A stretch of DNA of 64,000 bases from Propionimicrobium sp. PCR01-08-3 (GTDB lineage Bacteria; Actinomycetota; Actinomycetes; Propionibacteriales; Propionibacteriaceae): positions 1,364,001 through 1,428,000 of the forward strand of contig NZ_CP127390.1 of NCBI RefSeq assembly GCF_030286045.1, read 5' to 3'. The notes under the pieces are model-generated. The model saw nothing but the letters and a program-made list of their open reading frames with translations. It was not told where the DNA came from and ran no database searches. Numbering within the stretch: position 1 is the first letter of the stretch; each line of letters begins with the position of its first letter. The position numbers and the translations under genes are program-made. This document shows, one piece after another, positions 1 to 56,647 of this stretch.

Positions 1-1320
1 CACAGCAGCAATCCTGTCGAGGTAGGCCTGGTCCCGGTCACGCTTGGGCTGCTGGTCACGGATGGGGGAGCGGTACCGCTCGTTCGTCGCGGGCGTGAGC
101 GGAGCGAGTGCCCCGACGTGCCCGGCACGAGCGGTAGCGAGCGCTGGGGTCTCGGTCTCCTCCACCGCCTCGTCCGTCGGCGGGAGCGGAGCGACTGCCG
201 CCGGGTCCGCCGGGAGCGGAGCGAGCGGCTCGACCTCAGCCTCGACGGCGTCGTCCTGCGGCTCGCCCTGTTCCTCCGCTGGCGAGAGCGGAGCGAGCGG
301 CCCGGTGTCGGCCTCCACCTCGTCATCACGGGTCCGCTTCAGGAACTCGGCGCGGAGCTCCTCACGCGACCTGGGCGGCGCTGCCGCCGTCGCAGCCACC
401 CGCTGCTGGCGCTGCACCTCGGCAGCCTGCCGCTGGGCCTCGGCCGCACGGCGCTGGCGCTCAGCCTCGACGGCCTGCTGGAGACCCGCATCGGTGAACT
501 CCGAGCTCAGCTTCGAGGCCGCCTTGCGACGACGACGAGGCCTCTTCCCAGGGGTCACCTCGTCACGTGCCACGTACGTGATCCCAACCTCGACGTCGCC
601 CTTCCGGCGACCCTCGCGGGCATCGGTATCCACGACGTGCTCGGTGCGGACCACGTCCACACCACGGGTCTTGCACTCGGCCTCGAAGACCTCGTTGAAC
701 GCAGCGAGATCACCCTTGAGAGCGACCTCCTTCGCCTCGGCCACCCGGTCACCGATCGACTGCTCGAAGGCCTGGAGATCGGCACGCCGGTCGGTCCACT
801 TCTCGCGCGCGGCGACGTACTGATCGTCGACGACGCGCATACCTTCCTCGCGCATGAGCGTGTCGTTGAGCCGCTTGATCGCAGCGTGCGTCCTGTTCTT
901 CTTCGGCGCGAGGCCCGAGACCAGGTCATGGTTCAAAATGACCACATGGGCGTGGACGTGACCACCATCGGCGTCGTCGTGTACCACGACCATCGTCGGT
1001 GAGTTCGGGAACGCCCGCCGGGCCAGTTCCAGGGCCAGGTCACCACCTCGCTGGAGGTCGTCGGGGTTGCGCACATCCAACTCGTCGGGGTGGAAGTTGA
1101 CCAACATCCCGTGGGCCTTGACCCGGCGCTTGTGGCCTGCCGCGAGCCGGTTGCCCAGCTCGATGAACTCGTCGATGGAACCGGCGTCACAGTGGAACCC
1201 CGGGGCGATGCGATTCGTGCCCGCCTTCGCATGATCCCTCTTCTTGGCACCGACCCCCATTTCGAGGTAGTCGGCCCGCGTCCCGAGGTCGTAGACCGGC
1301 GCGATGTGGGTGGTGCTCAC
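1..1320 (-). CDS. Relaxase/mobilization nuclease, C-terminus cut by window edge
   Basis: The reading frame begins at a GTG (complement of 1318-1320) and stays open to the left edge, giving about 440 visible residues. The frame contains VVVHDDADGGHVHAHVV at about residues 111-127. This is the three-histidine HUH motif III of MobA/VirD2-type relaxases, which nick DNA at oriT and stay bound to the 5' end. The N-terminal tyrosine is probably Y10 or Y18. After about residue 230 the protein becomes Ala/Gln/Arg-rich, likely coiled coil, then a low-complexity linker with repeated PLAPL blocks. The GTG overlaps the MobC stop by four bases (GTGA), so the two are translationally coupled. The family assignment is firm; the MOB subclass is not determined. 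Confidence 0.85.
   Translation of the reverse strand, partial: MSTTHIAPVYDLGTRADYLEMGVGAKKRDHAKAGTNRIAPGFHCDAGSIDEFIELGNRLAAGHKRRVKAHGMLVNFHPDELDVRNPDDLQRGGDLALELARRAFPNSPTMVVVHDDADGGHVHAHVVILNHDLVSGLAPKKNRTHAAIKRLNDTLMREEGMRVVDDQYVAAREKWTDRRADLQAFEQSIGDRVAEAKEVALKGDLAAFNEVFEAECKTRGVDVVRTEHVVDTDAREGRRKGDVEVGITYVARDEVTPGKRPRRRRKAASKLSSEFTDAGLQQAVEAERQRRAAEAQRQAAEVQRQQRVAATAAAPPRSREELRAEFLKRTRDDEVEADTGPLAPLSPAEEQGEPQDDAVEAEVEPLAPLPADPAAVAPLPPTDEAVEETETPALATARAGHVGALAPLTPATNERYRSPIRDQQPKRDRDQAYLDRIAAV
97..297 (+). repeat. Short interspersed repeat GAGCGGAGCGAG inside the relaxase gene
   Basis: The 12-mer GAGCGGAGCGAG occurs exactly at 97-108, 214-225 and 286-297, and with one change at 184-195. 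A degenerate copy lies near 129-143. The reverse complement occurs outside the relaxase at 1828-1839. In the relaxase frame the copies encode the repeated LAPL/PLAPL blocks of the C-terminal linker. The non-coding copy suggests the DNA word itself is favoured. Confidence 0.75.
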
Positions 1321-4153: not shown

Positions 4154-4377
4154 CGCGCACCACCACCCACACTGTTCGCGGCGAGCCAGGCGTCCAGGTC
4201 GACGATCCGGTAGACGACGACGCCACCGGACTTCACGTAGGCCGGACCCCGGCCCAAGGTCCTCCAGTTGGCGAGGGTCTTCCGGTTGATGCCGATGTAG
4301 CGGCTGGCCTCGTCGAGGGTGAGTGCCGCGGGGGCCGGAGAGTGGCCGCTGTCGGCGGCAATATGGGTGACAGACAT
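4150..4377 (-). CDS. Excisionase/AlpA-like HTH protein
   Basis: A 75-residue protein with an HTH_17-type winged helix at residues 17-65: ALTLDEASRYIGINRKTLANWRTLGRGPAYVKSGG followed by VVVYRIVDLDAWL. Small proteins like this act as excisionases or regulators next to tyrosine integrases. It is divergent from the integrase and overlaps the primase-helicase by four bases. It could therefore control both excision and replication. The exact role is inferred. Confidence 0.75.
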   Translation of the reverse strand: MSVTHIAADSGHSPAPAALTLDEASRYIGINRKTLANWRTLGRGPAYVKSGGVVVYRIVDLDAWLAANSVGGGAR

Positions 4378-4667
4378 CTGTGGTCCTTCGGGAGAAACGA
4401 CGGGTGACCGTCGGCCTCACCGAATGCCGATCCAAGACAGCTCATGCGCCGCACCTTCGGAAGCGCGACGTGGGGGGTCGATGCGACACCCCAGCCCCCT
4501 CTCGCCGAACGGGGGGACAGACCACAGTGGTTACCGCCCAGTCGGCCACGGGGCGGCCCAACAACATCCTCTCGGGCTCGTCATTGGTATTGCTCACGAG
4601 CCTAGCAGCCCTGTCAATCCCGATCAAACCCACCCTGCTCGGCCCTATCCTGACCGTTCTTGCACCT

Positions 4668-4719
4668 GCGAGAAAGTGACCGTATGGTCGACCCGACTTG
4701 AACCCGCGAGAAAGTGACC
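4668..4719 (+). repeat. Direct repeats upstream of integrase, candidate arm-type sites
   Basis: GCGAGAAAGTGACC occurs at 4668-4681 and again at 4706-4719, directly before the integrase start at 4725. The shorter core AAGTGACC/GAGTGACC recurs after the gene. The rest of 4378-4667, between the divergent Xis and integrase genes, shows no other gene and should hold both promoters. Confidence 0.6.
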
Positions 4720-4724
4720 TGACC

Positions 4725-5981
4725 ATGGCACGCGCAGCCACCACCCGCCTCGAACCCGGCCAGCACTCCATCGACCGTGCCACCCCGTTCGCCTACCGCG
4801 ACGGCTGGGCCCTGAAGTGGCGGCTGCGCCTGCCCAGCGGCAAGCTCGTCGAGAAGCTCACCCAGGGGCCCACCAAGGGCGCCGTGCGCAGCCGGGCCAA
4901 GGCGACGGCCGCAAAGCTGCTCGCCGCGCCCGGCAACACCGCCTGGTCGCCCACCAGCCCGGTGCTCGACTACATGGAGAAGGTCACCGCGCCTGCGATC
5001 CAGACCGACCGGCTCTCCGACAGCACCACCCGCCGCTACGCGCTGGCGCTGCGGCTACTGCGCGGGGAGTGTAGGACCTCCAAGTGCAAGCACAAGCACT
5101 CCCTGGCCGGCCTCTCGCTCCACGACGCCATGCGCTCGCGCAACCTCAAGGCCTGCCTAGAAGAGATCGCCCAGCTCCACGGCCGGGTCAACGCCAAACA
5201 CGCCAAGACCGTTGCCAAGCGCTATCTTGCCGCCCCGCTGAAGATCGACGAGATCATCGAGTACAACCCGCTGATCGACCTCGACCTCGACCTCTCCGAC
5301 GCGAAGCGGCCCACCGTGGACCGGGGAGGCCACGCCCTCACCATGGATGAGTACCGCCGCGTCATCGACCACCTGCTGGCGGCCGACCCCACCGCGATCA
5401 CCAAGGCTCGGCAAGGTCGCTGGACCGTCGAGCAGCTCGTGCGCCAGCGCGGCCAGGTCATCGACGTGATCCTCACCCAGGCGACCACCGGCATGCGCAC
5501 CTCCGAGCTGTGCCAGCGCACCAAGGGTGACGTCGAGGTCGACAAGGACGGCACCGTGGTCTTCAACCTCTCGCCCGAGGCCACCAAGACGCGCTCCGGC
5601 CGCAAGGTGCCGGTCCTGGACCCTCGCGTCAGCGCGCGCCTAGTCGCCCGCCTGGGCGTCATCAGCGACAAGGAGCATCCGCTGTTCCCGTCGCCCACCA
5701 ACCCCGAGATGCCGTGGGACCCCCGCGCCCGCGACCGCAAGCTCGCCCCGATGTACCAGCACCTCGCCGAGGAACTGGAGATCCCCCTCCTGGAGTACGA
5801 GCGCGGCCACGTTTGGAGGGCCACCCTCAACACCCTGTTGTTCGACCGCATCCCGGAGGCGGCACGCATCCGGCTGCTCGGCCACACCGAGGCGGTCAAC
5901 CGCCAGTTCTACACCGCCGTGACCGACACCAAGAGCGTCGTGCAGGCTGCCGCGGTCCTCCGCGGCGACCCGGAAAAGTGA
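4725..5981 (+). CDS. int: Tyrosine recombinase integrase
   Basis: 418 residues from ATG 4725. An earlier in-frame ATG at 4698 lies inside the direct repeats and is less likely. The N-terminal half has the arm-binding and core-binding SAM-like domains. The catalytic domain shows TTGMRTSEL (Arg I), TKTRSGRKVPV (Lys), HVWRATL (HxxR box) and LLGHTEAVNRQFYT (His/Tyr nucleophile), so the active site is complete. It ends about 140 bp from a tRNA 3' fragment, as expected for an enzyme that integrates the element into a tRNA gene. Confidence 0.92.
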   Translation: MARAATTRLEPGQHSIDRATPFAYRDGWALKWRLRLPSGKLVEKLTQGPTKGAVRSRAKATAAKLLAAPGNTAWSPTSPVLDYMEKVTAPAIQTDRLSDSTTRRYALALRLLRGECRTSKCKHKHSLAGLSLHDAMRSRNLKACLEEIAQLHGRVNAKHAKTVAKRYLAAPLKIDEIIEYNPLIDLDLDLSDAKRPTVDRGGHALTMDEYRRVIDHLLAADPTAITKARQGRWTVEQLVRQRGQVIDVILTQATTGMRTSELCQRTKGDVEVDKDGTVVFNLSPEATKTRSGRKVPVLDPRVSARLVARLGVISDKEHPLFPSPTNPEMPWDPRARDRKLAPMYQHLAEELEIPLLEYERGHVWRATLNTLLFDRIPEAARIRLLGHTEAVNRQFYTAVTDTKSVVQAAAVLRGDPEK

Positions 5982-5997
5982 CCGCAAGAGTGACCGC
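5974..5997 (+). repeat. Second pair of integrase-site-like repeats
   Basis: AAAAGTGACCGC at the integrase 3' end is followed at once by AGAGTGACCGC. Both share AGTGACC with the repeats upstream of the integrase gene. An inverted pair ACCGCTAG (5993-6000) / CTAGCGGT (6041-6048) follows. The set lies between int and att, as arm-type sites do. Confidence 0.5.
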
Positions 5998-6116
5998 TAG
6001 ATCAAGGATTTCGGGGGTACTATCGGGAACCACAGGGATCCTAGCGGTGACGAAATGCCCAGTCAGAACGCGTAAAACCCGGTAATCCCCGCTCAATCCC
6101 TAGATTGTGACAGGAG

Positions 6117-6156
6117 AGTCAAGGGGTCGCAGGTTCAAATCCTGTCAGCCCGACCA
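6117..6156 (+). other. att site: 3' fragment of a tRNA gene (probably tRNA-Pro)
   Basis: The T-arm GCAGGTTCAAATCCTGT and acceptor end CAGCCCGACCA are present, preceded by GTCAAGG, which fits the 3' half of the anticodon stem. The 5' half of a tRNA is absent from the bases before it. The partner acceptor strand would be CGGGCTG, which is characteristic of actinobacterial tRNA-Pro. This is therefore the attachment-site copy made when the element integrated, and the intact tRNA gene should lie beyond the left edge. Confidence 0.7.
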
Positions 6157-6163
6157 TGTGAAG

Positions 6164-6199
6164 TCCCGCGACATCGTTCAGTGATGTTGCGGGATTTTT
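6164..6199 (+). terminator. Rho-independent terminator after the tRNA fragment
   Basis: The stem TCCCGC(G)ACATC / GATGT(T)GCGGGA is followed by ATTTTT and, a few bases on, by another T run. It lies eight bases after the CCA end and probably was the terminator of the original tRNA gene. Confidence 0.7.
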
Positions 6200-6291
6200 C
6201 GTGTTTTTGGCGCGGGTATGTTGCGGGTCATCGTGCATGGTTTGGGGTGGGTGTTGCGGGTCATCGTTCACTTGGTGTGTCGGGTCATCGT

Positions 6292-6510
6292 TCATTTTTT
6301 CTTTTGGTAGTTGCGGGTTGGGTCGATGGTGTGTTCGGCGATGATTTCGCCGGTGGCGCGGTTGATGGTCATGGTGTGGGGGCCGTGTGTGAGGAGGAGG
6401 ACTCGCGTGTTGGCGTGGGGTCTGCCGATGGCGAGGTGTCGGAGTTTTCCGGCGTATCGGATGGTGATGGTTCCTCCTTTGTCGACGAGGTCGTAGCGGA
6501 CTCGCCAGAC
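6292..6510 (-). pseudogene. C-terminal fragment of IS481-family transposase
   Basis: The fragment VRYDLVDKGGTITIRYAG..LRHLAIGRPHANTRVLLL and the following IAEHTIDPTRNYQ are the usual tail of IS481-family transposases, which are about 340-400 residues long. The catalytic DDE core is missing. The sequence stops at the IS3 inverted repeat. The ORF reads on past the repeat, but that extension is not transposase. Confidence 0.75.
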
Positions 6511-6542
6511 GGGTCTGATGCAGGAACAGGTGACAGTTCTGG

Positions 6543-7442
6543 TTAGGCCGCGAGGGCCAGTTCTTCGTTCATGATGGTCTCGAATTCGATCGGCGTCAAA
6601 CGACCCAGGCGGGCCTGCCGGCGACGGCGATGATAGGTTCGCTCGATCCACGTGACAATCGCGATGCGAAGCTCCTCACGCGTGGCCCAGGAGCGCCGGT
6701 TCAGCACGTTCTTCTGCAACAGGCTGAAGAACGATTCCATCGCCGCGTTGTCACCGCAGGACGCGACTCTGCCCATCGAACCGACAAGTTTGTGCGCAGC
6801 GAGTTCACGGCGCAGCTTCCGGCTTCGGAATTGGGATCCTCGGTCCGAATGGACGATGCAGCCCGCAACGTTGCCGCGCATCCGGACGGCGTTTCGGACG
6901 GCGCGGACCGCGAGTGACGCTTTCATTCTCGAGTCGATGGAGTAGCCCACGATCCGGCCGCTGAATGCGTCTTTGACGGCGCAGAGATACAGCTTGCCCT
7001 CGGCGGTCTTGTGCTCGGTGATATCGGTCAGCCACAGTTCATTCACCCGAGAGGCACTGAACTGGTGACGCTCACGCCCGTCCTCGTCGATGACGACGCA
7101 GCGGTCGTCGTGAACGGCAGGGCCGGGCTTCTTGCCGTTCTTGCCACGCTTCTTCCCGAACACGCTCCACCACCCATTCGACAACGTGATCCGCCACGCC
7201 GTTCGATCCGACATCGACTCGCCCTCCTGGCGGGCTTCGTCGGCGAGGAGCCGATACCCGAACTCCGGGTCATCGCGATGCGCGTCGAACAACGCGTTCG
7301 CGCGATACACCTCGTCCAGCTCCCGCCGGGAGACGGGACGACGCAACCAGCGGTAGTAGGGCTGGCGAGCAAGCTTCAAGACCCGGCACGACACCACGAC
7401 GGGGATCCCGTCCACGGCGAGCTCACTCACGAGCGGGTAGAG
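6543..7442 (-). pseudogene. IS3-family transposase orfB, separated from orfA
   Basis: This is the rve/DDE integrase domain of an IS3 transposase: WLTDITEH (first D), IVHSDRGSQF (second D) and AAMESFFS (E), so the catalytic triad is intact. The N-terminus YPLVSELAVDGIPV is that of a product normally made by frameshifting from orfA. The sequence upstream has been removed to the other side of the IS110 insertion. A stand-alone start at 7430 (GTG/SELAV) is possible, but active transposase is unlikely. Confidence 0.85.
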
Positions 7443-7483
7443 CTGTAATGGCCTCTGGCGGGCCCGCGGCCGGCTGGGATGCT

Positions 7484-7660
7484 GAGCCGTAGCTCGGCCG
7501 AGTGACTCCGGGTAGAACCGACTCGTGAATAGTTCGCGATGTCTTCAAAAGGACGTGTCCTCGGCTGAGCTACGGCTCGGTCTCTCCGCGCAGATGCCTT
7601 GATCAGAAGCCTGTCCGTCCCCAGGGGCGTGACTCATTACAGATGTGACTCTGAGCGACC
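7484..7660 (+). ncRNA. Predicted IS110 bridge RNA with target and donor loops
   Basis: A 19-bp stem (7484-7502 with 7560-7578, one G-U pair) closes a 57-nt loop. In the loop, CGGGTAGA (7509-7516) repeats the left target flank (7434-7441), and AAAAGGACG (7547-7555) is complementary to the right junction (8766-8774). In the next segment, AGAAGC (7605-7610) repeats the element's right end (8761-8766), and CATTACAG (7635-7642) is complementary to its left end (7443-7450). These are the four guide relations of a bridge RNA: target-left, target-right, donor-left and donor-right. The exact ends of the RNA are not known. Confidence 0.8.
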
Positions 7661-7702
7661 CGGGCCAGTCCGCTGATGTGCTGACGACTGGAGGAACTCA
7701 CC

Positions 7703-8749
7703 ATGACCACCGTTACTGAACGCTACGAGCACGTCGTAGGGATCGATACCCACGCGCGTACTCACACGTATTGCATCATCGAATCCCGGACGGGAGCGGT
7801 GGTCGATACGAGATCGTTCCCGACTACTGCCCCCGGGATGCAGCGTGCAGTCACCTGGATCCGACGAAGGACTCACGGGAAGCCGGTGCTCGCCGCCGTG
7901 GAGGGTACTTCCTCGTACGGTGCCGGCATCACCACCGCCCTTCTGACAGAGGGGATCGAGGTGGCCGAGATCCGACCTCTCTACCGCCGTTCCCGAGCAC
8001 AAACAGGCAAGTCGGACCCGCTGGATGCAGAAGCAGCCGCTCGAACGGCGCTTTCCACGGACGTCGAGAAACTTGCTCAGCCACGTCGCTTCGGTGACCG
8101 CGCGGCGCTCCGCGTGCTGCTGGCGAGCCGGTCACTGATCGATCAGCAGCGCACGGCCAACAAGAACGCGCTCACAGCACTCCTGCGCACCACCGACGTC
8201 GGAATAGATGCGCGCAAACCGCTCACAGACGCGCAAATCGCCACCATCGCGACCTGGCGAACCGGGCGAGATCAGCCATCGAAACGAGTCTTCCGGGAAG
8301 AGGGAAGAAGGCTGGCCAAGTCGATCATCGAGCAGACCAGGTCACTTCAGCAGAACCACCAGGCGCTGTCCGTGCTGACCGAGACTCTTGCCCCGGGCCT
8401 CCAGAGCATCCCGGGGGTCGGCGCGGTCACAGGAGCGATCCTGGTGGCCTCGTACTCGCATCACGGGCGGGTGCGCTCTGAAGCGGCTTTCGCCGCTCTC
8501 GGCGGTATAGCTCCATTGCCGGCCTCCTCGGGCAACACCAGTCGCCACCGACTCTCCCGCTCGGGCGACCGGCAACTCAACCGTGCCGTCGATGTCGTCG
8601 TCCGCACGCGGATGAGCTACGACCCCGTCACCTGCGAATACGTTGAGCGCCGGCGTGCCGAAGGGCTCTCCAAGCGCGAGATTCGACGGTGCCTCAAGCG
8701 ATACGTCTGCAGGTCTCTGTTCCGAGAACTTCGGACTCGGATGGCTTGA
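7703..8749 (+). CDS. IS110-family transposase (DEDD/serine recombinase)
   Basis: 348 residues. The N-terminal DEDD_Tnp_IS110 domain shows GIDTH (D), AAVEGTSSYG (E) and KSDPLDAEAAAR (DxxD). The C-terminal Transposase_20 domain begins at LQSIPGVGAVTGAILVAS and includes the conserved serine region PLPASSGNTSRHRLSRSGDRQLN. GGAGG lies about ten bases before ATG 7703. The gene appears intact. With the upstream RNA it should recombine donor and target DNA by the bridge mechanism. Confidence 0.92.
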   Translation: MTTVTERYEHVVGIDTHARTHTYCIIESRTGAVVDTRSFPTTAPGMQRAVTWIRRRTHGKPVLAAVEGTSSYGAGITTALLTEGIEVAEIRPLYRRSRAQTGKSDPLDAEAAARTALSTDVEKLAQPRRFGDRAALRVLLASRSLIDQQRTANKNALTALLRTTDVGIDARKPLTDAQIATIATWRTGRDQPSKRVFREEGRRLAKSIIEQTRSLQQNHQALSVLTETLAPGLQSIPGVGAVTGAILVASYSHHGRVRSEAAFAALGGIAPLPASSGNTSRHRLSRSGDRQLNRAVDVVVRTRMSYDPVTCEYVERRRAEGLSKREIRRCLKRYVCRSLFRELRTRMA

Positions 8750-8769
8750 CACGGAGGCATAGAAGCGTC

Positions 8770-9061
8770 CTTTTCCCGGCAGATGCGCCTGCGCGAAATA
8801 CGCGGCCGCGCGACGCAGCACCTCGTTCTCCTGCTCGAGGAGCCGGTTTCGCTTACGCAGCTCACGTACCTCCACGGACTCCTGCTTCGTCTCGCCCGGC
8901 TGATCACCGGCCTCGATGCGGGCTTGTCGCATCCACTTGTCGAGAGTGCCGACATGGACGCCGAAGTCTTTCGCGATCTGCGCGAGAGTGACTTCTGGAT
9001 CACGATTCTCCGCGACACGGACCACGTCGTCACGGAACTCCTTGGGGAACGGCTTGGGCAT
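8770..9061 (-). pseudogene. IS3-family transposase orfA, cut by IS110
   Basis: MPKPFPKEFRDDVVRVAENR begins an HTH_Tnp_1 domain, followed by a leucine-zipper-like stretch (VRELRKRNRLLEQENEVLRRAAAYFAQ). It is cut at PGKG where IS110 begins; the frame then runs into antisense IS110 sequence. If the flanks are rejoined, the A AAA GG run at the junction puts orfB in the -1 frame, matching the programmed frameshift of IS3 elements. Confidence 0.85.
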
Positions 9062-13663: not shown

Positions 13664-16258
13664 ATGGAGTCTGGAGTGGTCCAAGCAAAGGAAACAAACC
13701 TTGAGGGTGTGCTGGAAGGCAGGAAACAGTACGTCGTGCCGCTGTTCCAGCGCCCATACTCCTGGAAACGGGAACAAATAGACAGGCTTTGGGCCGATCT
13801 CATCGACATTGCCCGGACCCGACGCACGAGCCCGGATGCGACGCATTTTATTGGTTCGTTGGTGCTCGCGGTGAGCCCGGGTGTCGGTGCCGTTGGGATG
13901 AATGAGTTCTTGGTAGTTGATGGGCAGCAGCGGTTGACAACTCTCACGCTCTTGCTCGCGGCACTGCGCGATCACCTGGTCGAGACCGTCGGTGGTTCTG
14001 AACGCGAGGGCATAGACACGCAATACCTGATCAACCGATTTGATAAGGGCGCGCCAACGAAGTTTCTACCGACACAAGATGATCGCCAGGCTTACGAAGC
14101 AATTATTCGCTCGTTGGGAAATGCCGGCGACGGGACGCGAATTGAGAAGAACTACAATCATTTAAAGGCAAAGCTCGCCAAGCTCAACAATGAAGATGGC
14201 TCCGTCTCGGCGAAGGAATTGGAGGATGCCATCTTGCGAGGCCTGGAGTTGGTTGCAGTACAGGCGGAGCAAAGCGACAATGCACATCGAATCTTTGAAT
14301 CCCTCAACAACACGGGTATGCCGCTGACACAAGCGGACCTGCTGAAGAACTACCTGTTTATGAGGCTGGGGGACAATAGGACAAATGCGGTCTATCAGTC
14401 CATCTGGCGGCCACTTGAGCAGAAGCTGGCTCCGAAGGACCTTGAACTGCTGTTCTGGCTCGACCTGGTCTTCGTGGACGAGAATGCCAAGCAGACGGAT
14501 ACCTACGCGGGTCAGCAGAAGCGCCTCGATAGGCTGGCAACACCGAGCGAGATCGAAAACGAAATCAGCCGAATCGCTGCCCTCGGTGATGTCTTGGTCT
14601 CGATCCTCGAGCCATCCCGTGAGTCTGATCCGGAGATCCGGATTTGGTTGGAGCGCATCAAGGCTTGGGGATCTACGACGGCCTATCCGATTGTCTTGCG
14701 GATCTTGGCGCGTCGGGCTGCCGGCACCGCTACAGCCGAGCAAGCGACGAGCGCATTCCACACGCTGATTTCCTACTTCGTGCGTCGCGTTGTCATCGGC
14801 CGTGCTACCGCGGGCATCAACAAGACGCTCCTGCAAGCAGTCGCCGCAGTCGGTGACGAGCCCGACGTGGCCGTTGCGCTGCGCAGCTATTTGTCGAATG
14901 GACGGAAATACTTCGGCACGGACGCTCAGGTAAGAGAGGCGGTCGGTACGGTCGATTTCTATCACAACGGCCGCAAGGCGCAGCAGAATCTGATCCTACG
15001 ATGGCTCGAAGAATCATACGAGGGCAAGGAGACGACCAATCTCACCGGTCTTACGATCGAGCACGTACTGCCTCAGACGTTGTCCGAAGAAACCCGGGAC
15101 GAGTTCGCCGAGACACTGGATGGTGATGCGGATCTCGTCGCTGAACACGGACGCATCGTTCATACCATCGGCAACCTCACTCTAACTGGCTATAACAGCG
15201 AATTGTCGAACCGGCCATTCGCCATAAAACGAGATCAACTCGGGAAGAGTCCCCTCGAGATGAATAAGACAATCGCTGCGCACGAAAGCTGGGGCACGGA
15301 AGAGATCCTCTCTCGCGGTGCAAAACTCGCCGACCGCATCATTTCTCTGTGGCCAGGGCCGGACGAATCCGTAGCCGAGCCGGTCCCTAATGATGGCTTG
15401 CCCGCCAGAATCGCTCAGGTCATTGACGCTATTCCGCCGGGCAGATGGACGTCGTACACCGAATTGGCTGTGGTCGTCGGTAGCCACCCGGTAGCGGTCG
15501 GCGCAGCTGTCGCCAATAATGCCACCGAGGGCGCATGGCGCGTGATGACGCACGACGGCAGACCCTCGGCCCAGTTCCGCTGGAATGATTCCAACCGCAC
15601 CGATCGGTCCCAGAATGTTTTGGCCGCTGAGGGCATCACATTTGACGAGTCCGGACGAGCATCTGATGCGAAATTCATGGATGCGCGCGCATTAGCTGAT
15701 ACCGCTGGAGTCGGCATTGACGATGTGACCATCAGTGCCCGGCGAAAGAAAATAACCACGAAGTACTCTCCCCGGGACGGCCACAGCAGGCCCCAGCTTC
15801 AGTATTGGACCATGCTCAAGAATTGGTGCGAGCAAAACGCTCCGCACCTGGCTGTCGGCCGGACCCCTCGGGCTCGAACTTGGTACGACATCAGTATCGG
15901 ATGCAGCGGAATCAACATATCGTTGACGGTCAGTTCCGTCGGGAAACGCTTACAAACACAACTATGGATTGCCGATAACAAGCCGCTCTTCGGCTACCTA
16001 TTAGCCCGCCGAGACGACGTCGAGGCGGAGTTGGGATATCCCGTCGAGTGGGACGATAAGCCCGGGCGCATGGCATCGAAGATCATCGCAACCCACGAAG
16101 GAGACTTCCAGGATGTGAACGATCGGTCGGAATTAGTCTCTTGGCATGGGCGGACCGCGGACGACTTCGGTCGAGTGTTTCCTTCCTACATCAAACGGTG
16201 GCTGAGAGAGTCTGCCGGAGGCGGGGAACAGATACGTGTAGCGGGGTCCGGCATTTGA
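13664..16258 (+). CDS. DUF262-DUF1524 (GmrSD-like) protein fused to ATL and DUF4268 domains
   Basis: 864 residues. The N-terminal DUF262 domain has FQRPYSW (28-34) and VDGQQRLTTL (85-94), the ParB/Srx-like NTPase signature of GmrS and BrxU. A DUF1524 His-Me nuclease domain follows (IEHVLPQ near 465, then HTIGNLTLTGYNSELSN). Residues about 580-670 read as an alkyltransferase-like winged helix (IPPGRWTSYTELAVVVGSHPVAVGAAV...WRVMTHDGRPS). It lacks the PCHR cysteine and so should bind, not repair, DNA. The last about 140 residues resemble DUF4268. This is likely a modification-dependent (type IV) restriction enzyme. GTG 13676, with GGAG before it, is an alternative start. Confidence 0.8.
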   Translation: MESGVVQAKETNLEGVLEGRKQYVVPLFQRPYSWKREQIDRLWADLIDIARTRRTSPDATHFIGSLVLAVSPGVGAVGMNEFLVVDGQQRLTTLTLLLAALRDHLVETVGGSEREGIDTQYLINRFDKGAPTKFLPTQDDRQAYEAIIRSLGNAGDGTRIEKNYNHLKAKLAKLNNEDGSVSAKELEDAILRGLELVAVQAEQSDNAHRIFESLNNTGMPLTQADLLKNYLFMRLGDNRTNAVYQSIWRPLEQKLAPKDLELLFWLDLVFVDENAKQTDTYAGQQKRLDRLATPSEIENEISRIAALGDVLVSILEPSRESDPEIRIWLERIKAWGSTTAYPIVLRILARRAAGTATAEQATSAFHTLISYFVRRVVIGRATAGINKTLLQAVAAVGDEPDVAVALRSYLSNGRKYFGTDAQVREAVGTVDFYHNGRKAQQNLILRWLEESYEGKETTNLTGLTIEHVLPQTLSEETRDEFAETLDGDADLVAEHGRIVHTIGNLTLTGYNSELSNRPFAIKRDQLGKSPLEMNKTIAAHESWGTEEILSRGAKLADRIISLWPGPDESVAEPVPNDGLPARIAQVIDAIPPGRWTSYTELAVVVGSHPVAVGAAVANNATEGAWRVMTHDGRPSAQFRWNDSNRTDRSQNVLAAEGITFDESGRASDAKFMDARALADTAGVGIDDVTISARRKKITTKYSPRDGHSRPQLQYWTMLKNWCEQNAPHLAVGRTPRARTWYDISIGCSGINISLTVSSVGKRLQTQLWIADNKPLFGYLLARRDDVEAELGYPVEWDDKPGRMASKIIATHEGDFQDVNDRSELVSWHGRTADDFGRVFPSYIKRWLRESAGGGEQIRVAGSGI

Positions 16259-48769: not shown

Positions 48770-51643
48770 ATGTCCGTATCCACCGACCTGGATGTTGCGC
48801 CGGGGTCCATCATCCAGGTCAGAGACGAAGAGTGGCTTGTCACTTCGGTGGACAGCACGGCCGACGGCCAGCTACTGCAGGTGACCGGTACCTCCGAATT
48901 GGTGCGGGGCACCACCGCGAACTTCTACCCGAGTATCGATCGGGTGGTCCCGCTCAATCCCGCGGACGCCCGGGTGATCGCCGACGCGTCGCCGCATTAC
49001 CGCAAAGCCCGGCTGTGGCTGGAGTCGACCATCCGCAAGACCGCGACTCCCGCCAACCTTCCCGATATGGTGGTCTCCGATGGTGCACTGGCTGATCCGC
49101 TGCCGTACCAGCACACCGCCGTCGAGAAGGCCCTCGACCCCAACCACCTGCGCACCCGCATCCTGCTGGCCGATGCCGTCGGCCTGGGCAAGACGCTTGA
49201 GATCGGCATGATCTTGTCCGAGCTGATCCGCCGGGGCCGCGGCGAACGCATCCTGATCGTCTGCCCGCGCCACGTGCTCGAGCAGACCCAGAACGAAATG
49301 TGGTCTCGCTTCGATATCCCGTTCGTCCGGCTCGACTCGCTGGGCGTGCAGCGGGTGAAGCAGAAGATCCCCGCCAACCGCAATCCGTTCACCTTTTACA
49401 AGCGGGTCATCATCTCCATCGACACCCTCAAACAGGACCGCTTCGCAGGCGACCTGCGCAAACATCACTGGGATATAGTGGTCATCGACGAGTCGCACAA
49501 TGTGACGAACTCGTCGTCCAAGAACAATTCGCTGGCGCGGGTGCTCGCCCCCAACACCGACGCCATGATCCTCGCCTCGGCGACCCCGCACAACGGCAAA
49601 AAGGAATCCTTCGCCGAACTCATCCGGCTGCTGGAGCCGACCGCGGTCAGCCCTGCGGGCGACCTCAACCCCGACGACCTGAAGTCTTTGGTGGTGCGCC
49701 GGCACCGCAATTCGGACGAGGTGGCCAGCGTGGTGGGCGCCGACTGGGCCGAACGCCTGCCACCCAATAACGTCCTGGTCGACGCCTCACCCGCCGAGAA
49801 CGCGGTGGCCGATGAACTGGCCACCACCTGGCTACACCCGACCTGCGGCATATCGCCCTATTCGGGCGCCACCATCGGGCTATTCCCCTGGACGCTGGCC
49901 AAGGCCTACTTGTCGTCCCCGGCCGCGCTTGAGGAGACCATCGACAACCGGCTGCGTGGCCTGACCTCAGCTGAGCCGACGCAGGCCCGCGAGATCGCCG
50001 CGCTCACCAGGCTGCGAGAGCTCAATCAGCTGAGCTTCGATCATTCGGCGAAGTACCACAAGCTCGTCCACTACCTGCGTTCGATCGGTGTCGCCAAGAA
50101 CTCACCCGAACGCGCCGTGGTGTTCTCCGAACGGGTGCCCACCCTGGGCTGGCTGCGCACCAAGTTCACCCATGACCTCAAGCTGAAACCCGAGCAGGTC
50201 GCGATCTTGCATGGCGGCATGACCGACCTCGACCAGCAGAACATCGTCGAAAGCTTCAAGCAGGCGTCCTCGCCGATCCGCCTACTGATCACCGGTGATG
50301 TCGCCTCCGAGGGTGTCAACCTGCATCTGCAGTGCCACGAGCTCATTCACTACGACATTCCCTGGTCGCTGATCCGCATCGAGCAGCGCAACGGGCGCAT
50401 CGACCGCTACGGGCAGCGGCATCGTCCGCAGATCACCACCTTGCTGCTCAACCCCAGCACCGAAGACTGGACCGGCGATATTCACGTACTGCAGTTGCTG
50501 CTGCAAAAAGAGCAGCAGGCCCACCAGGCGCTCGGTGATGCCGCCAGCCTAATGGGGGAGTACTCCGCGACCGCCGAAGAAAACGCCATCCGCGATGTAC
50601 TGGCCCACCGCAAGAACTTCGATGATGTGGTCAAAGACCCCGCCGATCTCACCGGCGACCCGGACGACTCGCTGGCCGCCTTCCTCGATCTGATCGGTTC
50701 CGACTCGGTCGAGGCCACTTCGACTGAGCGGAAGCCACCAAGCCGCGACCCGCTCTACCCGAAGGCCGTCGATTTCCTGCGTGAGGCGGTCGAGGACTAC
50801 TACCAGGGCAATCAATCCAAGGCCCCCGGCGACGCTGGCGCGGGAGGCATCTCATGGAAAGAATTCCCGGCCGAGCATCTGGTGGAGTTCGTGCCGCCTG
50901 CCGATCTGAGGGCCCGGCTCGAGGTATTGCCCGACTCCTACCTCAGGCAGCGTCACGTGCTGCAGAGGATCAAGCTGGCCACCACGAAGTCAGAGGCCGA
51001 CCGACTACTCAAGAACGCTCTGAACGACGAGAACGGATCGAGCTGGCCGGAGGCGCACTATCTCGGCCCGCTACATCCGGTGCTCGACTGGGCGGCCGAC
51101 CGCTGTTTGGCGGCACTATCGCGCAACGAGATCTTCGCGGTGCGCGGCGCCGTGCAGCATCCGAATGTGCTGACGGTCGGCACCATCACCAATAAACGCG
51201 GCCAGGTGATCTCGGCGGTGTGGATGTCGGTGATGTTCAATCCGGACGACTTCTTTGTCTCGCCGGTCATTCACGATTCGAGTTTCGCGATGTTCAGGGC
51301 CATGGGCCTGGATGGTGATCTCAACAATCCAGGACCGGTCGCAGGCATCGACGACCTGCAAGAGCTGATTTCGCGCGCCGTGCGAAAGGCTGCTGACTAT
51401 CTCGAATACGTTGGGCAGGCCTCCATGGACGACACCCAGCATAGGGTGCAGGCCTGGAATCAGCAGATCGAGACCTGGTCGGCGCAGGCGGCACAGCTGC
51501 CGCTTATCGGTTCGATGAAACGCAGACGGATGGCCGTCGAGCAGGAGCGGGAGCTGATCGCACAGATGTCTCCCGACCGCAGACTGGTTCGTCCGCTGCT
51601 GGTGGTGGTGCCGGCGAATACCCCGGTGGAAGGTGGCAATTAG
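48770..51643 (+). CDS. drmD: SNF2-type helicase, DrmD-like
   Basis: 957 residues. Superfamily 2 motifs: I DAVGLGKTLEIG (about 134-145), II VIDESHN (about 238-244), III SATPHNG and VI QRNGRIDRYGQ (about 538-548). The last about 400 residues are family-specific. DISARM class 1 begins with DrmD of this length and architecture, followed by an Eco57I-type methylase, as here. It is predicted to translocate on or remodel incoming phage DNA. Confidence 0.8.
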   Translation: MSVSTDLDVAPGSIIQVRDEEWLVTSVDSTADGQLLQVTGTSELVRGTTANFYPSIDRVVPLNPADARVIADASPHYRKARLWLESTIRKTATPANLPDMVVSDGALADPLPYQHTAVEKALDPNHLRTRILLADAVGLGKTLEIGMILSELIRRGRGERILIVCPRHVLEQTQNEMWSRFDIPFVRLDSLGVQRVKQKIPANRNPFTFYKRVIISIDTLKQDRFAGDLRKHHWDIVVIDESHNVTNSSSKNNSLARVLAPNTDAMILASATPHNGKKESFAELIRLLEPTAVSPAGDLNPDDLKSLVVRRHRNSDEVASVVGADWAERLPPNNVLVDASPAENAVADELATTWLHPTCGISPYSGATIGLFPWTLAKAYLSSPAALEETIDNRLRGLTSAEPTQAREIAALTRLRELNQLSFDHSAKYHKLVHYLRSIGVAKNSPERAVVFSERVPTLGWLRTKFTHDLKLKPEQVAILHGGMTDLDQQNIVESFKQASSPIRLLITGDVASEGVNLHLQCHELIHYDIPWSLIRIEQRNGRIDRYGQRHRPQITTLLLNPSTEDWTGDIHVLQLLLQKEQQAHQALGDAASLMGEYSATAEENAIRDVLAHRKNFDDVVKDPADLTGDPDDSLAAFLDLIGSDSVEATSTERKPPSRDPLYPKAVDFLREAVEDYYQGNQSKAPGDAGAGGISWKEFPAEHLVEFVPPADLRARLEVLPDSYLRQRHVLQRIKLATTKSEADRLLKNALNDENGSSWPEAHYLGPLHPVLDWAADRCLAALSRNEIFAVRGAVQHPNVLTVGTITNKRGQVISAVWMSVMFNPDDFFVSPVIHDSSFAMFRAMGLDGDLNNPGPVAGIDDLQELISRAVRKAADYLEYVGQASMDDTQHRVQAWNQQIETWSAQAAQLPLIGSMKRRRMAVEQERELIAQMSPDRRLVRPLLVVVPANTPVEGGN

Positions 51644-52943
51644 ATGGCCAGCAGCGATGCATTGCGGGTTGTCGAGGACTTCGTGGCCGAGCACTATTTC
51701 ACCTCGGACGCCACGAATGAGACCTTTCACAAGCGGGTGATCGAGCGCCGCAAGGTGTGGGACGCCACGTCGGAAGACACCTCGCGTTCCCGACTGACGG
51801 CCGCGCACGGCGATCTGCTGACCGCAATGGCCGGACTGTATCCGGACGCCACCAGCGGTGAGGCCGGTAACAATGGCCGACAGCTGGTCGACGACGATCT
51901 TCGTCCGAAAGTCGCCGATCTGTACGGGAGGCTTCGTCACGTCCTTGGTTTCGGCACCGGTGAGTTCCATCATGAGACTTCCGGCCCGGTGCACCGCTAC
52001 GCAGCCCATGGGGTGAACGAGTTTCCGCTGGCCATCGTGGACGCGGTACCCGTGCCTTCGCTGGAGGATCTGTTCATCAAGGGTGCCCCGACCCTGCTGA
52101 CGCCCTGGCTGCCGGACGATGAGCCCGGAACCAAGCAGGTTCGCTCGGTCTCCGAGGCGTTGTCCGCGCTGTTCGTGGAGCGCGACGCGACCCCGCCCGC
52201 CGAGTTCGCGCTGGTGCTCGCCGGACGCTGGATCATCGTCACCGAGGCGGCACGCTGGCAGCAGGGCCGCTATCTCGGTGTCGACCTGCAGACCGTGCTC
52301 GACCGCAACGAGACCAAACGCGGCGGCGAAGTCGATACCGCGTTGTGCTGCATCGACGCCGGTTCGCTGGGTCCCGACGAGGCTGGTGCCATCTGGTGGC
52401 GCGACACCCTGGACGACTCGGCCCGGCACACCGTCGGGGTCAGCGCCGACCTGCGCGAAGGCGTGCGAACCTCGATCGAGATCATCGCCAACGATGTGGT
52501 CAACCGCCGCCGCAAGCTAGGTCTGCCCCCGCTGCCCGACAACCAGGCGCAGCCGCTGGCGAAACAGTCGCTGCGATTCTTGTACCGGATTTTGTTCCTG
52601 CTCTATGCAGAGGCCTCCCCGCAACTGGGCATCCTGCCTCTCGGCGCACCCGAATACGAGGCCGGGTATTCCATCGACCGGCTGCGCGACCTCATACAGG
52701 TGAAACTCACCAGCACCAAATCCCGTCAGGGCACCCATCTCTACGATTCGCTGGGTGTGCTGTTCCGGCTGATCGACCAGGGCCACGGCTACGCCACCCG
52801 CGTCACCGACTCCGGTTTCCCCGACCCCGCCCTGGACGAGCCGACTGACGAACTCGGCTCCGGGGCCGCAACGCACGGCCCCGACGAGACATCCGGCGAA
52901 ACCGCCACCGGTCGGGCCGAATCGTCCCCTGAGCATGCCAGAG
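51644..52943 (+). pseudogene. drmMI: N-terminal part of DrmMI-like DNA methylase
   Basis: Begins one base after the drmD stop. MASSDALRVVEDFVAEHYFTSD...KRVIERRKVWD and FLYRILFLLYAEASPQLGILPLG...THLYDSLGVLFRLIDQGHGY match the N-terminal segment of Eco57I-type adenine methylases of DISARM/BREX type. Homology fades after about 52810. The frame continues to a stop at 53005 through sequence that is antisense to the methylase core. The catalytic domain that should follow is on the other strand. Confidence 0.75.
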
Positions 52944-54636
52944 GGCCAGCATCCACCATGGATTGCCCTCGGCAAGCAGTGCCTCCACATCCCCGCGCGG
53001 CCTGACCCAGGGAGGATTCCCGACCTGGAGGTCGAAACCGCCCCTACCGAAGACCGGGGCGAGATTCAGTTCCCAGTGGAAGAAGCCTTGCTGGGCCGCC
53101 ACGTTTTCGCATACCTGCAGCCAGGGGTGCGCCTCGATCACCTGGGATACGTGGTCGGCGGCACCCGCACCGGCCAGCTGGAAGTTCTCCTGATCGGCCA
53201 GCGCCTGCCACGCGTTCGCCGGGGCGAGCTGATCCTGGTCGTCCGAAACCATCCGGCCGCGAGACTTCGCCTGCTGGTGAGTGCCGAGAATCTGCTCACA
53301 GCACTCGATCCACTCCCCCAAGCTGGGCGGCTTCACCTGAACTTGCGTGAGCGGCCAGAACCACAGTGCACACCAGGCGTCCATCACCCGGTGCAGCCGC
53401 CGATACGCGCCATCCGGGTCGGCCAGCGACTGCTCGATCTGTTCCCGGGTCACATACCTCGCCGGAGTGTCATCCTGGGCCTGGCCCCACAGCCCGATGG
53501 TGCGCCTGGTCTGCTGATCGGCGATCACCAAACGCCGGTAGGCCATCGTCCACAATTCTTCGACCTGATAGCCCAGCGCGACCAGCCGGTTGATCTCACC
53601 GTTCGAGGGCTTGACCCTGACCTTTTTCCGCCAATCCTTAAGGGCCTTCACTCGGTCGGGAACCAGCTTCTTCGCTTCTTTGGACACAGCGGTAGAGCCC
53701 CAGCCCTCGGCGGGCAGCAGCCAATGCGGCACCAAACCCTGAGCCTTGGTCTGGGTCGGTGAATCGTCCCGCACTTTTTCGGCGATGTCGGTAAGCGGCA
53801 CATCGGTGGCGGGTTGGTTCAGCCACGACTTGTCGGCGAGCTGATCCCTGCGATAGCAGGCCCTTCTGGCGCCGATCAGCGAATTACCGCGGCGCAGATG
53901 CAGCCCGAACCACGGTGCCTGCAGGCCCTGGGTCATGGTGTCGAGCCACAGGGTGATCTCGGCGAACTCCACCGCGGCCTCGTTGAGGTCGACACCGTAC
54001 ACCTGGTGCAGCGCGATCGACGCCTTGACCTTCTGCAGTTCGGCGGGGCGATCCTCCGGATCGACCGTGCGGCCCAGCTCGTGCTCCTTGCGGGTGAGGT
54101 ATTGCTCGGCCAGCTGCCTGGTGGCCTCGATGGCGAATGCGCCCGAGCCGAGCGCCGGCTCGCAGATCGTGAGATCGAGGATCTCGTCGGCCGGGGTGGT
54201 TACGCCGTCCTGGTCGAGCAGTTCGTCCAGCGCCTGCCCGACGGTAAACCGGGTCAGCACCTCCGGGGTGTAATACGAGGCGGACTGCTGGCGTTCCCGG
54301 CCCGACAGCCGGAAGACGAATTCGCCGGTGCCGTAGCGCCGGGGCGCCCGCTCACCGGTGTCCGGGTCTTCGACGGTGACGAAATCCTTCTGCTCGATGT
54401 CACCTGCCCGGTCGACCGGCACCACCCACGATCCCTCGCTCAGGTCGCCGTCGTGGGCCACCTCGTAGAGCTCCTGGGAGGCGACGAAGCCGGTGTAGCT
54501 CATCAGGCCCTCGTAGACCGCGCCCAGCTGGTTGATGCCGAGCTCGACGTAGCTGATGAAGCCGCGCTCTCGTCGGTTCTGCTCCTTGGTGAGCAGCAGC
54601 CGGGACAGCACCTGCTGCAACGCCCGGTTGCCCAGC
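52944..54636 (-). pseudogene. drmMI: Central catalytic part of the methylase, inverted
   Basis: Reading on the minus strand, this gives about 560 residues of the missing core: GFISYVELGINQLGAVYEGLMSYTGF, QSASYYTPEVLTRFTVGQALDELL, the SAM motif ICEPALGSGAFAIEA, VYGVDLNEAAVEFAEITLWLD and the catalytic NPPW in FDLQVGNPPWVRPRGDVEALLAEGNPWW. Both flanking parts of the same gene are on the plus strand. Re-inverting at 52943/54637 would join GNPWWMLA to KPSEAA in frame on the 3' side. On the 5' side it would leave a one-base offset and about 20 expected residues missing. The segment has no start or stop of its own at a sensible place. Confidence 0.75.
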
Positions 54637-56475
54637 AAGCCCTCCGAGGCTGCGAAGTCCGAAAAGCGCGAATCAACGCTGTCGTTGCCCGGCATGGTCG
54701 ATGCCGTGCTGGACGGTACCGGCGATGTCGCTGGGCTCGCCGCCTACGTCGGTGATGCCACTAATTACCCGTTGCTCGCCGGTCTGCAGCCCGACCTCTA
54801 TCGCTGCTTCATGGCCCAGGTTTGGGCCCACCAATCCGGGCGCGGCATCTCGTCGCTGGTGCACCCCGAGACCCATTTCACCGACGAGAAAGCGGGAAGA
54901 CTCCGCGAGAACACCTATTTCAGGTTGCGTCGTCATTGGCAGTTTGAGAATCAGTTGAAACTGTTCCATGAAATCGGCAACCTGATCTCTTATGGCGTGC
55001 ATGTTTATGGTGCTCCGGGCACTGTTGCGTTCGATCACGCGACTGCGCTCTACCACCCGGCAACTATCGTGAGTTCCTACCGGCACAATGGTGATGGGGA
55101 CGAACCGGGCTTCAAATTTGACGGACATTGGGACACCAGGCCGCATCGAGCGCGAATTCAGCGCGTGACGGACGAGACCCTCGCACTCTGGCGCGACGTG
55201 CTTGAATCTCCAGGCAGTCCGCTGCAGCACACCCGAATGCTTTATACCGTGAACCGAGGAGTCTCCGATGTCCTGACTCGCGTCGCTCGCGCTGATCGCA
55301 TCGGATCCCTCGATCTGCATTTCTCACGTGGCTGGGACGAATCCATCGACCGCAAGAAGGGGTACTTCGTAAAGAGGTGGGGCGCACCGGAGACATGGAG
55401 AGATGCCATTTTGCAGGGACCGCACCTATTTGTCGCGAATCCCATGTATGAGTCGCCAAATAGGGGGCTAAAGAGCCACAGAGACTGGTCGCATGTTGAC
55501 CTAGAGCAGTTAGCGACCGACGCAGTACCGACAACGGGCTACAAACCCGCTGGTGACCGTGCCAGATATGACCGGGACTACACCCACTGGTCCGACAACC
55601 CCGACCCCGCGACCGCCGGTTTTGGTTCGAGCGAGACCTATTGGGAGAACGAGCCAGCCCGGGATCACTACCGAGTCGCCTGGCGCAGTATGGCAAATAA
55701 CACCGGAGAGCGGACCCTGATACCCGCGATAATTCCGCCGGGCTCTGCGCACCCAAACGGTGTGTTCTGCGTTGGAGCACATTCGAACCAAGAACTCGCG
55801 TTGGCCGCAGGCGCTGTCAGCTCGCTGATTTCAGATTTCTCTGTGCGGGCATCACCCAAAAGCGGCATCTATCAAGGTGTATTTGAACGCCTCCCGCTCC
55901 CACCCCTTAATCACCCGCTGATCCCTGCCTTGATCCTGCGCACTCTGAGGCTCAACTGCCTGACCAGCGCCTACGCCGACCTCTGGTCCGACTGCTTCGA
56001 CCCTGCCTTCCAAGCCGATTCCTGGACCAGCACCGAGCACACTGTCACCGAGCTGGGCGATGTCTCGTCCGAATGGAACAAGACGACCCCGCTGCGCCGG
56101 GACTCGGATCGTCGCCAGGCTCTGGTGGAGATCGACGCACTGGCGGCGCTGATGCTGGGCATCCCCGCCGAGGAATTGTGCACGGTCTACCGAACTCAGT
56201 TCGGGGTGCTAAATGAATACGACACCGGGATTGGAAAGTCGAAGTACATCTTCGACCGCAACGGCCGGATCATCCCGAACACCGTCTACGCCACCTGGAA
56301 GAAGAAGGGCGACGCCATCACCGGGGCCGAGCGCACCGCGACCAACGCGTCGGGGCGCACCTACATCTATGAGCTGCCGTTCATCACCTACGACCGGGAG
56401 GCCGATATGACGACGGCCTATCACGAGTTCGAGCGCAGGCTGGAAGCCGTCGGCGGATACGAGCCCGAATCATGA
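54637..56475 (+). pseudogene. drmMI: C-terminal part of DrmMI-like methylase
   Basis: From KPSEAAKSEKRESTLSLPG onward this matches the methylase C-terminus: YPLLAGLQPDLYRCFMAQVWAHQ, LVHPETHFTDEKAGRLRENTYFRLRRHWQFENQLKLF, DHYRVAWRSMANNTGERTLIPAIIPP (target recognition region) and HYEFERRLEAVGGY. It has no own start until an ATG at 54694. It ends normally at 56475. The 172-bp gap before the giant helicase shows no gene. Confidence 0.75.
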
Positions 56476-56647
56476 GCAAGTTACTACTGCGCACAAAAGC
56501 TCGCGCCCTGCGTGACCGGTATCTCGGGTCCGCTTTGCGACTACCTCGCTGTGTGTACGCCCCGACACCGGCGAAAAGCAATTTGGTAGACGCCCAGGAT
56601 TTAGGTTTCTGTGCGAGCCATGCACCAGTACAAGAGAGACCCGCTCC

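Follow-up and report, generated by a model that had tools for sequence, protein, structure and literature searches.

The window analysed here is a 64,000-nucleotide stretch of the Propionimicrobium sp. PCR01-08-3 genome (contig NZ_CP127390.1, positions 1,364,001 to 1,428,000 of the forward strand), and the gene under study (window positions 13664-16258; Table 1) encodes one 864-aa chain in which four domains follow one another, each over its Pfam cut-off: DUF262 (129.7 bits; cut-off 33.2), DUF1524 (84.4 bits; cut-off 23), a winged helix of the MGMT family and DUF4268. An earlier sequence-only reading of this DNA had proposed this arrangement and had noted that the PCHR cysteine site of MGMT is missing; both points are borne out, the site reading G-A-W-R with Ala624 at the cysteine position. 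Our sequence analyses and models show a predicted GmrSD-type core followed by a winged helix of alkyltransferase-like (ATL) fold, without the acceptor cysteine and without the arginine finger, and by a C-terminal DUF4268. The sole NCBIfam match to the protein is sub-threshold (ogt; 12.7 bits against a cut-off of 46.4), the best PADLOC models over the core are Orf5 and HEC-06, with SspE and type IV restriction models weaker, and the PADLOC model PDC-S11 matches the DUF4268 part. The whole-protein model, built from 24 sequences, has a mean predicted local distance difference test score (pLDDT) of 84.2 and a predicted template modelling score (pTM) of 0.62. The GC content of the gene is 57.2%, compared with 62.7% across the window, which would fit horizontal acquisition without proving it.

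The ATL-like module is predicted to have the fold of the MGMT C-terminal domain. Modelled alone with AlphaFold2 from 52 sequences, it reached a pLDDT of 92.2 and a pTM of 0.85 and matched Schizosaccharomyces pombe Atl1 bound to DNA (3gx4_X) with a Z score of 11.5 and a root-mean-square deviation (rmsd) of 3.3 Å over 97 residues, followed by Atl1 alone (Z 10.4), Vibrio parahaemolyticus vpATL (Z 9.5) and human MGMT (Z 9.0), with a Z of only 3.8 for the best match outside the MGMT/ATL family. All AlphaFold2 models were built without templates, and the fold comparison rests on alignment scores. The top Foldseek matches for the module were 2kif (1.4e-3) and 3gva (1.4e-2), none reaching E 0.001, and a profile search of Protein Data Bank (PDB) sequences with the module returned Atl1 at E 1.6e-9. 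Within the whole-protein model, residues 575-679 were likewise placed on ATL and MGMT proteins (VIA-align), so that the middle domain models as the sequence-only reading had anticipated. The module shares with Atl1 and vpATL the fold, the tyrosine of a [WS]T[ST]Y-type motif and the absence of an acceptor cysteine, but differs from them in its finger arginine, mostly Gln or Val among the fused modules, in its pocket Trp, mostly Ala, and in the addition of Trp595 and an F.W extension; the changed finger, Trp595 and F638-x-W640 are features that the earlier reading did not contain.

These residues were compared in an alignment of 54 fused modules with 21 ordinary ATLs. The fused set consists of the 57 distinct ORFs (open reading frames) that scored at least 30 bits by profile in the collected loci, less three dropped by hand (two L088 fragments and L003, the ordinary ATL of the window genome); it derives from searches that started from the window protein and from an 18-row alignment, so it is a non-random sample with some closely related members, and four of its members are short or fragmentary (L027, L049, L083, L106). 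The ordinary ATLs are L003 and 20 better-scoring short ORFs picked from 267 genomes whose best match lay below 59 bits; the acceptor cysteine is present in 0/21, and these controls thus contain no true MGMT. In Atl1 and MGMT an arginine finger flips the base and takes the place of the flipped base, and the tyrosine and the Cys or Trp of the pocket are also functional. At the position of Val610, which is that of the MGMT arginine finger, the fused modules have Gln (26 of 54), Val (18), Asp (3), Arg (2) or another residue (5), against Arg in all 21 ordinary ATLs. By effector, Gln stands there in 6/6 RAMA-type, 8/25 other GmrSD, 7/14 McrB and 4/5 NucS-like modules, and Val in 13 of the 25 other GmrSD modules. 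The cysteine position is Ala in 41, Pro in 5, Trp in 4, His in 2 and Arg in 2 of the 54, and Trp in 21/21 ordinary ATLs, the acceptor cysteine thus being absent from every fused module. The window protein has neither the PCHR cysteine by which an MGMT or OGT is recognized nor, with Val610, the arginine finger of an ATL. Other positions are well kept: the ATL/MGMT tyrosine (Tyr598) in 46/54 fused modules and 21/21 ordinary ATLs, and the Arg of PCHR in 53/54 and 21/21. The first residue of the WT[ST]Y motif is Trp in 54/54 fused modules (Trp595) and Val in 21/21 ordinary ATLs, and the F.W motif (F638-x-W640) has its F in 41/54 and its W in 43/54 against 0/21; these residues mark a distinct subfamily. 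Since both the arginine finger and the ATL pocket residue have been lost, O6-alkylguanine is an improbable ligand, and the fused modules are unlikely to have retained its binding; it is possible that they flip bases with Gln or Val, or that they merely hold DNA.

Table 1. Features of the gene and its protein, with window positions, residues, strand and basis.
Feature	Window positions	Residues	Strand	Basis
Whole gene, DUF262-DUF1524-ATL-DUF4268	13664..16258		+	Single ORF, 864 aa, ATG start
DUF262 / GmrSD_N, NTPase-type ParB/Srx-like domain	13703..14359	14-232	+	Pfam E 2.1e-37
DGQQR motif	13919..13933	86-90	+	Invariant in alignment A3
DUF1524 / GmrSD_C, HNH nuclease domain with H467, N504, N511, K522	14921..15334	420-557	+	Pfam E 8.7e-24
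ATL-like winged-helix module	15386..15733	575-690	+	Pfam, AlphaFold2 model, structure and profile comparison
DNA_binding_1 / MGMT winged helix, PF01035		582-658, within the module	+	E 1.2e-7, 31.9 bits; curated cut-off 27
WTSY	15446..15457	595-598	+	Alignment of modules
Val610, presumed arginine-finger position	15491..15493	610	+	Alignment; profile alignments place the Arg of R-x-V-G in Atl1 and vpATL here
G-A-W-R replacing P-C-H-R; Cys position = Ala624	15530..15541	623-626	+	Alignment of modules
DUF4268	15794..16189	711-842	+	Pfam E 1.4e-17

The module is shared by effectors of different kinds. GmrSD segments accompany 30 of the 54 fused modules, McrB 14 and a NucS-like nuclease 5, so that 49/54 share a protein with a restriction-type effector; one lies in another protein without further Pfam match (L075) and the remaining four in the short or fragmentary ORFs. 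The 30 ORFs with both GmrSD and ATL segments answer the question of whether the fusion is conserved, on which the sequence-only reading had made its proposal depend; DUF4268 is found in 6 of them and a RAMA domain between core and ATL in 5, and one (L040) has only the GmrSD_C part in frame. Five relatives from the same family and class have the same four domains at 51-53% identity (L034, L035, L036, L037, L119). The McrB ORFs run in the order Mrr_N-like segment (12/14), ATL, a further domain and the AAA_5 motor; in these McrBC type IV systems the same ATL module thus precedes an AAA motor, whereas the window protein has no such motor and a different effector. In 14/15 genomes McrC (PF10117) is found at a distance of ~1.5-1.6 kb from the module, the fifteenth (G450) being a 450-contig assembly, and it was matched in 1/14 control genomes. 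NucS is a PD-(D/E)XK nuclease, and among the five NucS-like module ORFs NucS_C Pfam matches occur in three (L078, L082, L085), all under the cut-off, with PADLOC PDC-S11 matches in all three ORFs tested (L076, L082, L085; E 1e-48 to 1e-50). That three unrelated kinds of effector carry the altered ATL domain suggests that it is a sensor which can be reused to detect foreign or modified DNA.

In a tree of the modules (75 rows), the 21 ordinary ATLs and the fused modules fall on opposite sides of one branch (100/99). Effector labels change along the tree six times for GmrSD (at least three forced), three times for McrB (at least two), twice for NucS-like (one) and once for RAMA, and labels that are clustered without forming single groups are what module exchange between effectors would give. 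The tree has 119 columns, midpoint rooting, seeded sampling and 29/72 inner branches unresolved, and its effector labels were assigned by hand (L071 was set as NucS-like by its visual likeness to L076), and we limit the claim accordingly. Among 394 sampled genomes of the class, the module was matched in 297, with a best match of at least 59 bits in 30; the weaker matches, among those listed, were mostly short ORFs covering only the first part of the model. Some weaker matches (37-51 bits) are also fused (L101, L102, L103 and second modules in L114 and L117), so that score is no clean divide for divergent members. No fused copy was found in 299 genomes from the phylum of a Halomonas locus (L004), other phyla not having been searched with the module; at E 1e-9 that search gave three module matches, none above 48.1 bits and all in ORFs of 111-169 aa. 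Two genomes (G719, G876; loci L114, L117) carry GmrSD-ATL and ATL-McrB genes ~3 kb and 7 kb apart. In genome G524 the gene is intact, and ~15 kb from it lies another GmrSD-ATL-like copy that is split among several frames (L106 ~4329-8079). The window genome itself encodes a second DUF262 protein (L002, G000:C1:183998-185035 onward) with a C-terminal RAMA, for which matches reach E 1e-8 only, and no ATL match was found at that locus.

The core of the window protein is of GmrSD type in its two domains, its DGQQR motif and HNH residues, and its fold. In a 24-row alignment (A3), D86, R90, H467, N504, N511 and K522 are each kept in 24/24 rows and G87, Q88 and Q89 are invariant, and residues 8-567 of the model superpose on DndI (9jfl; Z 21.1, 6.9 Å over 525 residues; VIA-align); DndI and SspE (7drs; Z 18.6) are the nearest solved core folds, and BrxU (7p9m) gave Z 10.9, with a whole-chain rmsd of ~20 Å for both SspE and BrxU; all three are restriction enzymes built of DUF262 and DUF1524. 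GmrSD, Eco94GmrSD and BrxU likewise join DUF262 with DGQQR and the DUF1524 HNH domain in one chain, whereas the window protein adds the ATL-fold and DUF4268 modules behind that core; DndI, as described in one report (PMC11662687), also consists of DUF262 and DUF1524 alone. In the accounts of two reports, the core of GmrSD, DndI and SspE is that of an NTPase-regulated HNH enzyme (PMC12409352; PMC11662687), and by analogy the window core should act in the same way.

Our data favour, with a probability of roughly 0.5, a single-gene type IV restriction enzyme in which a repurposed ATL module would recognize something in DNA that is not O6-alkylguanine, a modified base being the likeliest candidate. 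MGMT and ATL proteins dock on DNA. The ATL-fold module would dock in the same manner and would provide target recognition for such a feature, most likely a modified base of invading phage or plasmid DNA; its binding would relieve or position the nucleoside triphosphate (NTP)-regulated HNH core, which would then nick or cut the DNA, and the DNA cut would probably be that of invading viruses. That the module recognizes DNA on behalf of the effectors is suggested mainly because it is repeatedly paired with unrelated restriction machines. The sequence-only reading had linked the module to ATL proteins, which bind O6-alkylguanine without repairing it, and had suggested that base flipping would let the enzyme sense bulky or modified bases and so direct restriction. 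Its idea of a reader gains from the module's company with three unrelated restriction-type effectors, and restriction of this kind is possible; recognition in the manner of O6-alkylguanine binding is not supported, as the finger is lost in 52/54 modules and the pocket Trp has mostly become Ala.

Several observations weigh against the favoured reading. Replacement of the finger Arg by Val removes the best-known base-flipping residue, and the module may only bind DNA. PF01035 is over its cut-off in just 8/20 of the other module proteins scanned, which leaves the family partly hidden from that model. No defence gene adjoins the window gene. Some relatives are interrupted: the L035 and L038 matches contain a stop, and those in G520 and G396 are split in two. 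An N6-methyladenine (6mA) reader role has been proposed for RAMA, and one report could not confirm a 6mA preference (PMC11037411). Finally, an extra reader is not required, because BrxU, a GmrSD core alone, already selects modified cytosine according to PMC12409352, and the solved BrxU chains (563-580 residues) align to the window core and end with it.

Reading of the DNA by the core itself is the strongest rival. The winged helix of the module would then bind double-stranded DNA generically, to tether the nuclease or to read sequence or shape, and the modification would be read by the GmrSD core; we consider this unlikely, while granting it appreciable weight. Loss of the finger Arg and the pocket residue speaks for it, as does the selectivity of BrxU. 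DndI and SspE are described as sensing phosphorothioate via a DUF262 pocket around a Tyr (Y25/Y30; PMC11662687), and in A3 this aromatic position is Tyr in 20/24, Phe in 3/24 (Phe28 in the window protein) and a gap in 1/24; since the aromatic is kept, the core could read DNA too. Conservation of the module's Tyr, PCHR Arg, Trp and F.W residues, however, argues for more than backbone binding, and the module also occurs in McrB. The N-terminal domains of McrB proteins are often readers of modified bases. EVE-McrB is one combination named in PMC7641849.

It is improbable that the module has given up contact with DNA and now serves in protein interaction or regulation. The alteration of its DNA-reading residues would fit such a role, and three effectors might share one partner, but a crude comparison of longest ORFs, window against 23 loci, found no flanking gene that recurs with the window gene and its relatives and could be such a partner, and the DNA-facing Tyr and PCHR Arg are kept. 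Still less probable is a true ATL that senses O6-alkylguanine or a similar lesion, so that the enzyme would act on damaged or O6-modified DNA: the fold is that of Atl1 and vpATL and the cysteine is absent as in ATLs, but the residues at the finger and cysteine positions separate fused modules from ordinary ATLs, the two lie on opposite sides of the tree, and an ordinary ATL with an Arg finger and PWWRV is already encoded in the host genome (L003). O6-alkylguanine was dropped as a likely specificity on the residue counts at finger and pocket. The slimmest chance goes to a phosphorothioate-dependent enzyme of DndI/SspE type that acts together with the Dnd system of its host, for which the best structural matches of the core speak, and against which DndC (TIGR03183, E 0.001) was found in 0/11 genomes (the window genome and 10 relatives), a search in which 14 control genomes also gave none over the cut-off, which leaves it without a positive control, and SspBCD was not included.

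The fusion of GmrSD with PF01035 is not new, because Machnicka et al. (2015) recorded DUF4268 and PF01035 among the extra domains of GmrSD homologues, the latter mainly in Streptomyces (PMC4619093). Among the open-access papers listed (subscription journals, supplements and the PDC-S11 family not covered), none turned up that describes the module in McrB or its altered residues, and its extent across effectors was likewise not found in print. On a wider and more tentative view, to which we lend somewhat less credence than to the favoured reading, the ATL branch without cysteine and finger would form a hitherto undescribed class of readers of modified DNA, comparable to SRA, EVE/PUA and the winged-helix 6mA readers, which are exchanged, probably by Actinomycetota, among GmrSD HNH, McrBC and NucS-like effectors; their pocket, enlarged by the change of Cys or Trp to Ala and provided with a Gln or Val finger, would admit a base that is bulky or hypermodified. 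What defines a type IV enzyme is the modified DNA that it recognizes, and few reader folds are known; a fold taken from a repair protein and common to three unrelated nuclease machines would, if confirmed, add one. The module is small (~120 aa) and separable, which suits direct binding assays against phage DNA modifications, and the changes of finger R to Q/V and pocket W/C to A, together with the new conserved Trp, point to informative mutants.

DUF4268 is probably a second exchangeable module, for recognition or regulation, because PDC-S11 candidate defence proteins, whose nuclease differs from that of the window protein, bear at their C-terminus either DUF4268 (L026 847-1911) or the ATL module (L076, L082, L085). 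Its region (residues 708-851) resembles the YbjN/type III secretion chaperone fold (best Z 8.8, 3.6 Å over 116 residues, 6% identity), a likeness that comes from one model with a middling Z and does not reveal a function, and comparison of DUF4268 with the PDB by sequence gave nothing convincing (best E 0.023).

The genes adjoining the window gene encode TetR, RibD_C, GNAT and DUF3175 proteins. Other similarities in the comparison with 23 loci were one ORF of 31% identity (L095) and an ABC-transporter ATPase of 25-30% (L106), and nine neighbouring ORFs of relatives, picked by hand, include an EcoEI_R_C type I R protein (L104), Eco57I-type methylases (L105, L112), HsdM (L113) and helicases. A single scan of viral contigs with the window module confirmed no phage-borne relative of it. 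Against 50,697 phage records the whole protein gave five matches, to the core only and none covering 80%; 197 plasmid records matched the whole protein, none over 80%, and one (Streptomyces) matched the module. A related-locus search of genome contigs returned one match, weak and partial. Upstream of the gene lie an IS110-type transposase (7703-8749) and an HTH_Tnp_1 transposase ORF (8342-9061, minus strand).

Further downstream, the region 48770-63181, ~32 kb from the gene, is an apparent DISARM/Druantia-like defence operon, judged from its encoded proteins, with a DrmD-like SNF2 helicase (48770-51643), a type IIG/DrmMI-like restriction-methyltransferase gene (51644-56475) and a DruE-like DEAD/MZB protein of 2177 aa (56648-63181). 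The middle of the DrmMI-like gene (positions 397-964 of PADLOC PDLC03611) lies on the minus strand at 52803-54695, flanked on the plus strand by positions 1-356 and 964-1530. The longest exact inverted repeat in the two end zones examined is 9 bp. The gene is uninterrupted, with one match inside an open frame of at least 1531 aa, in 19/30 other genomes of the family that have a match, and the arrangement in the window would correspond to an internal inversion of ~1.7 kb, possibly the result of phase variation or of an assembly error.

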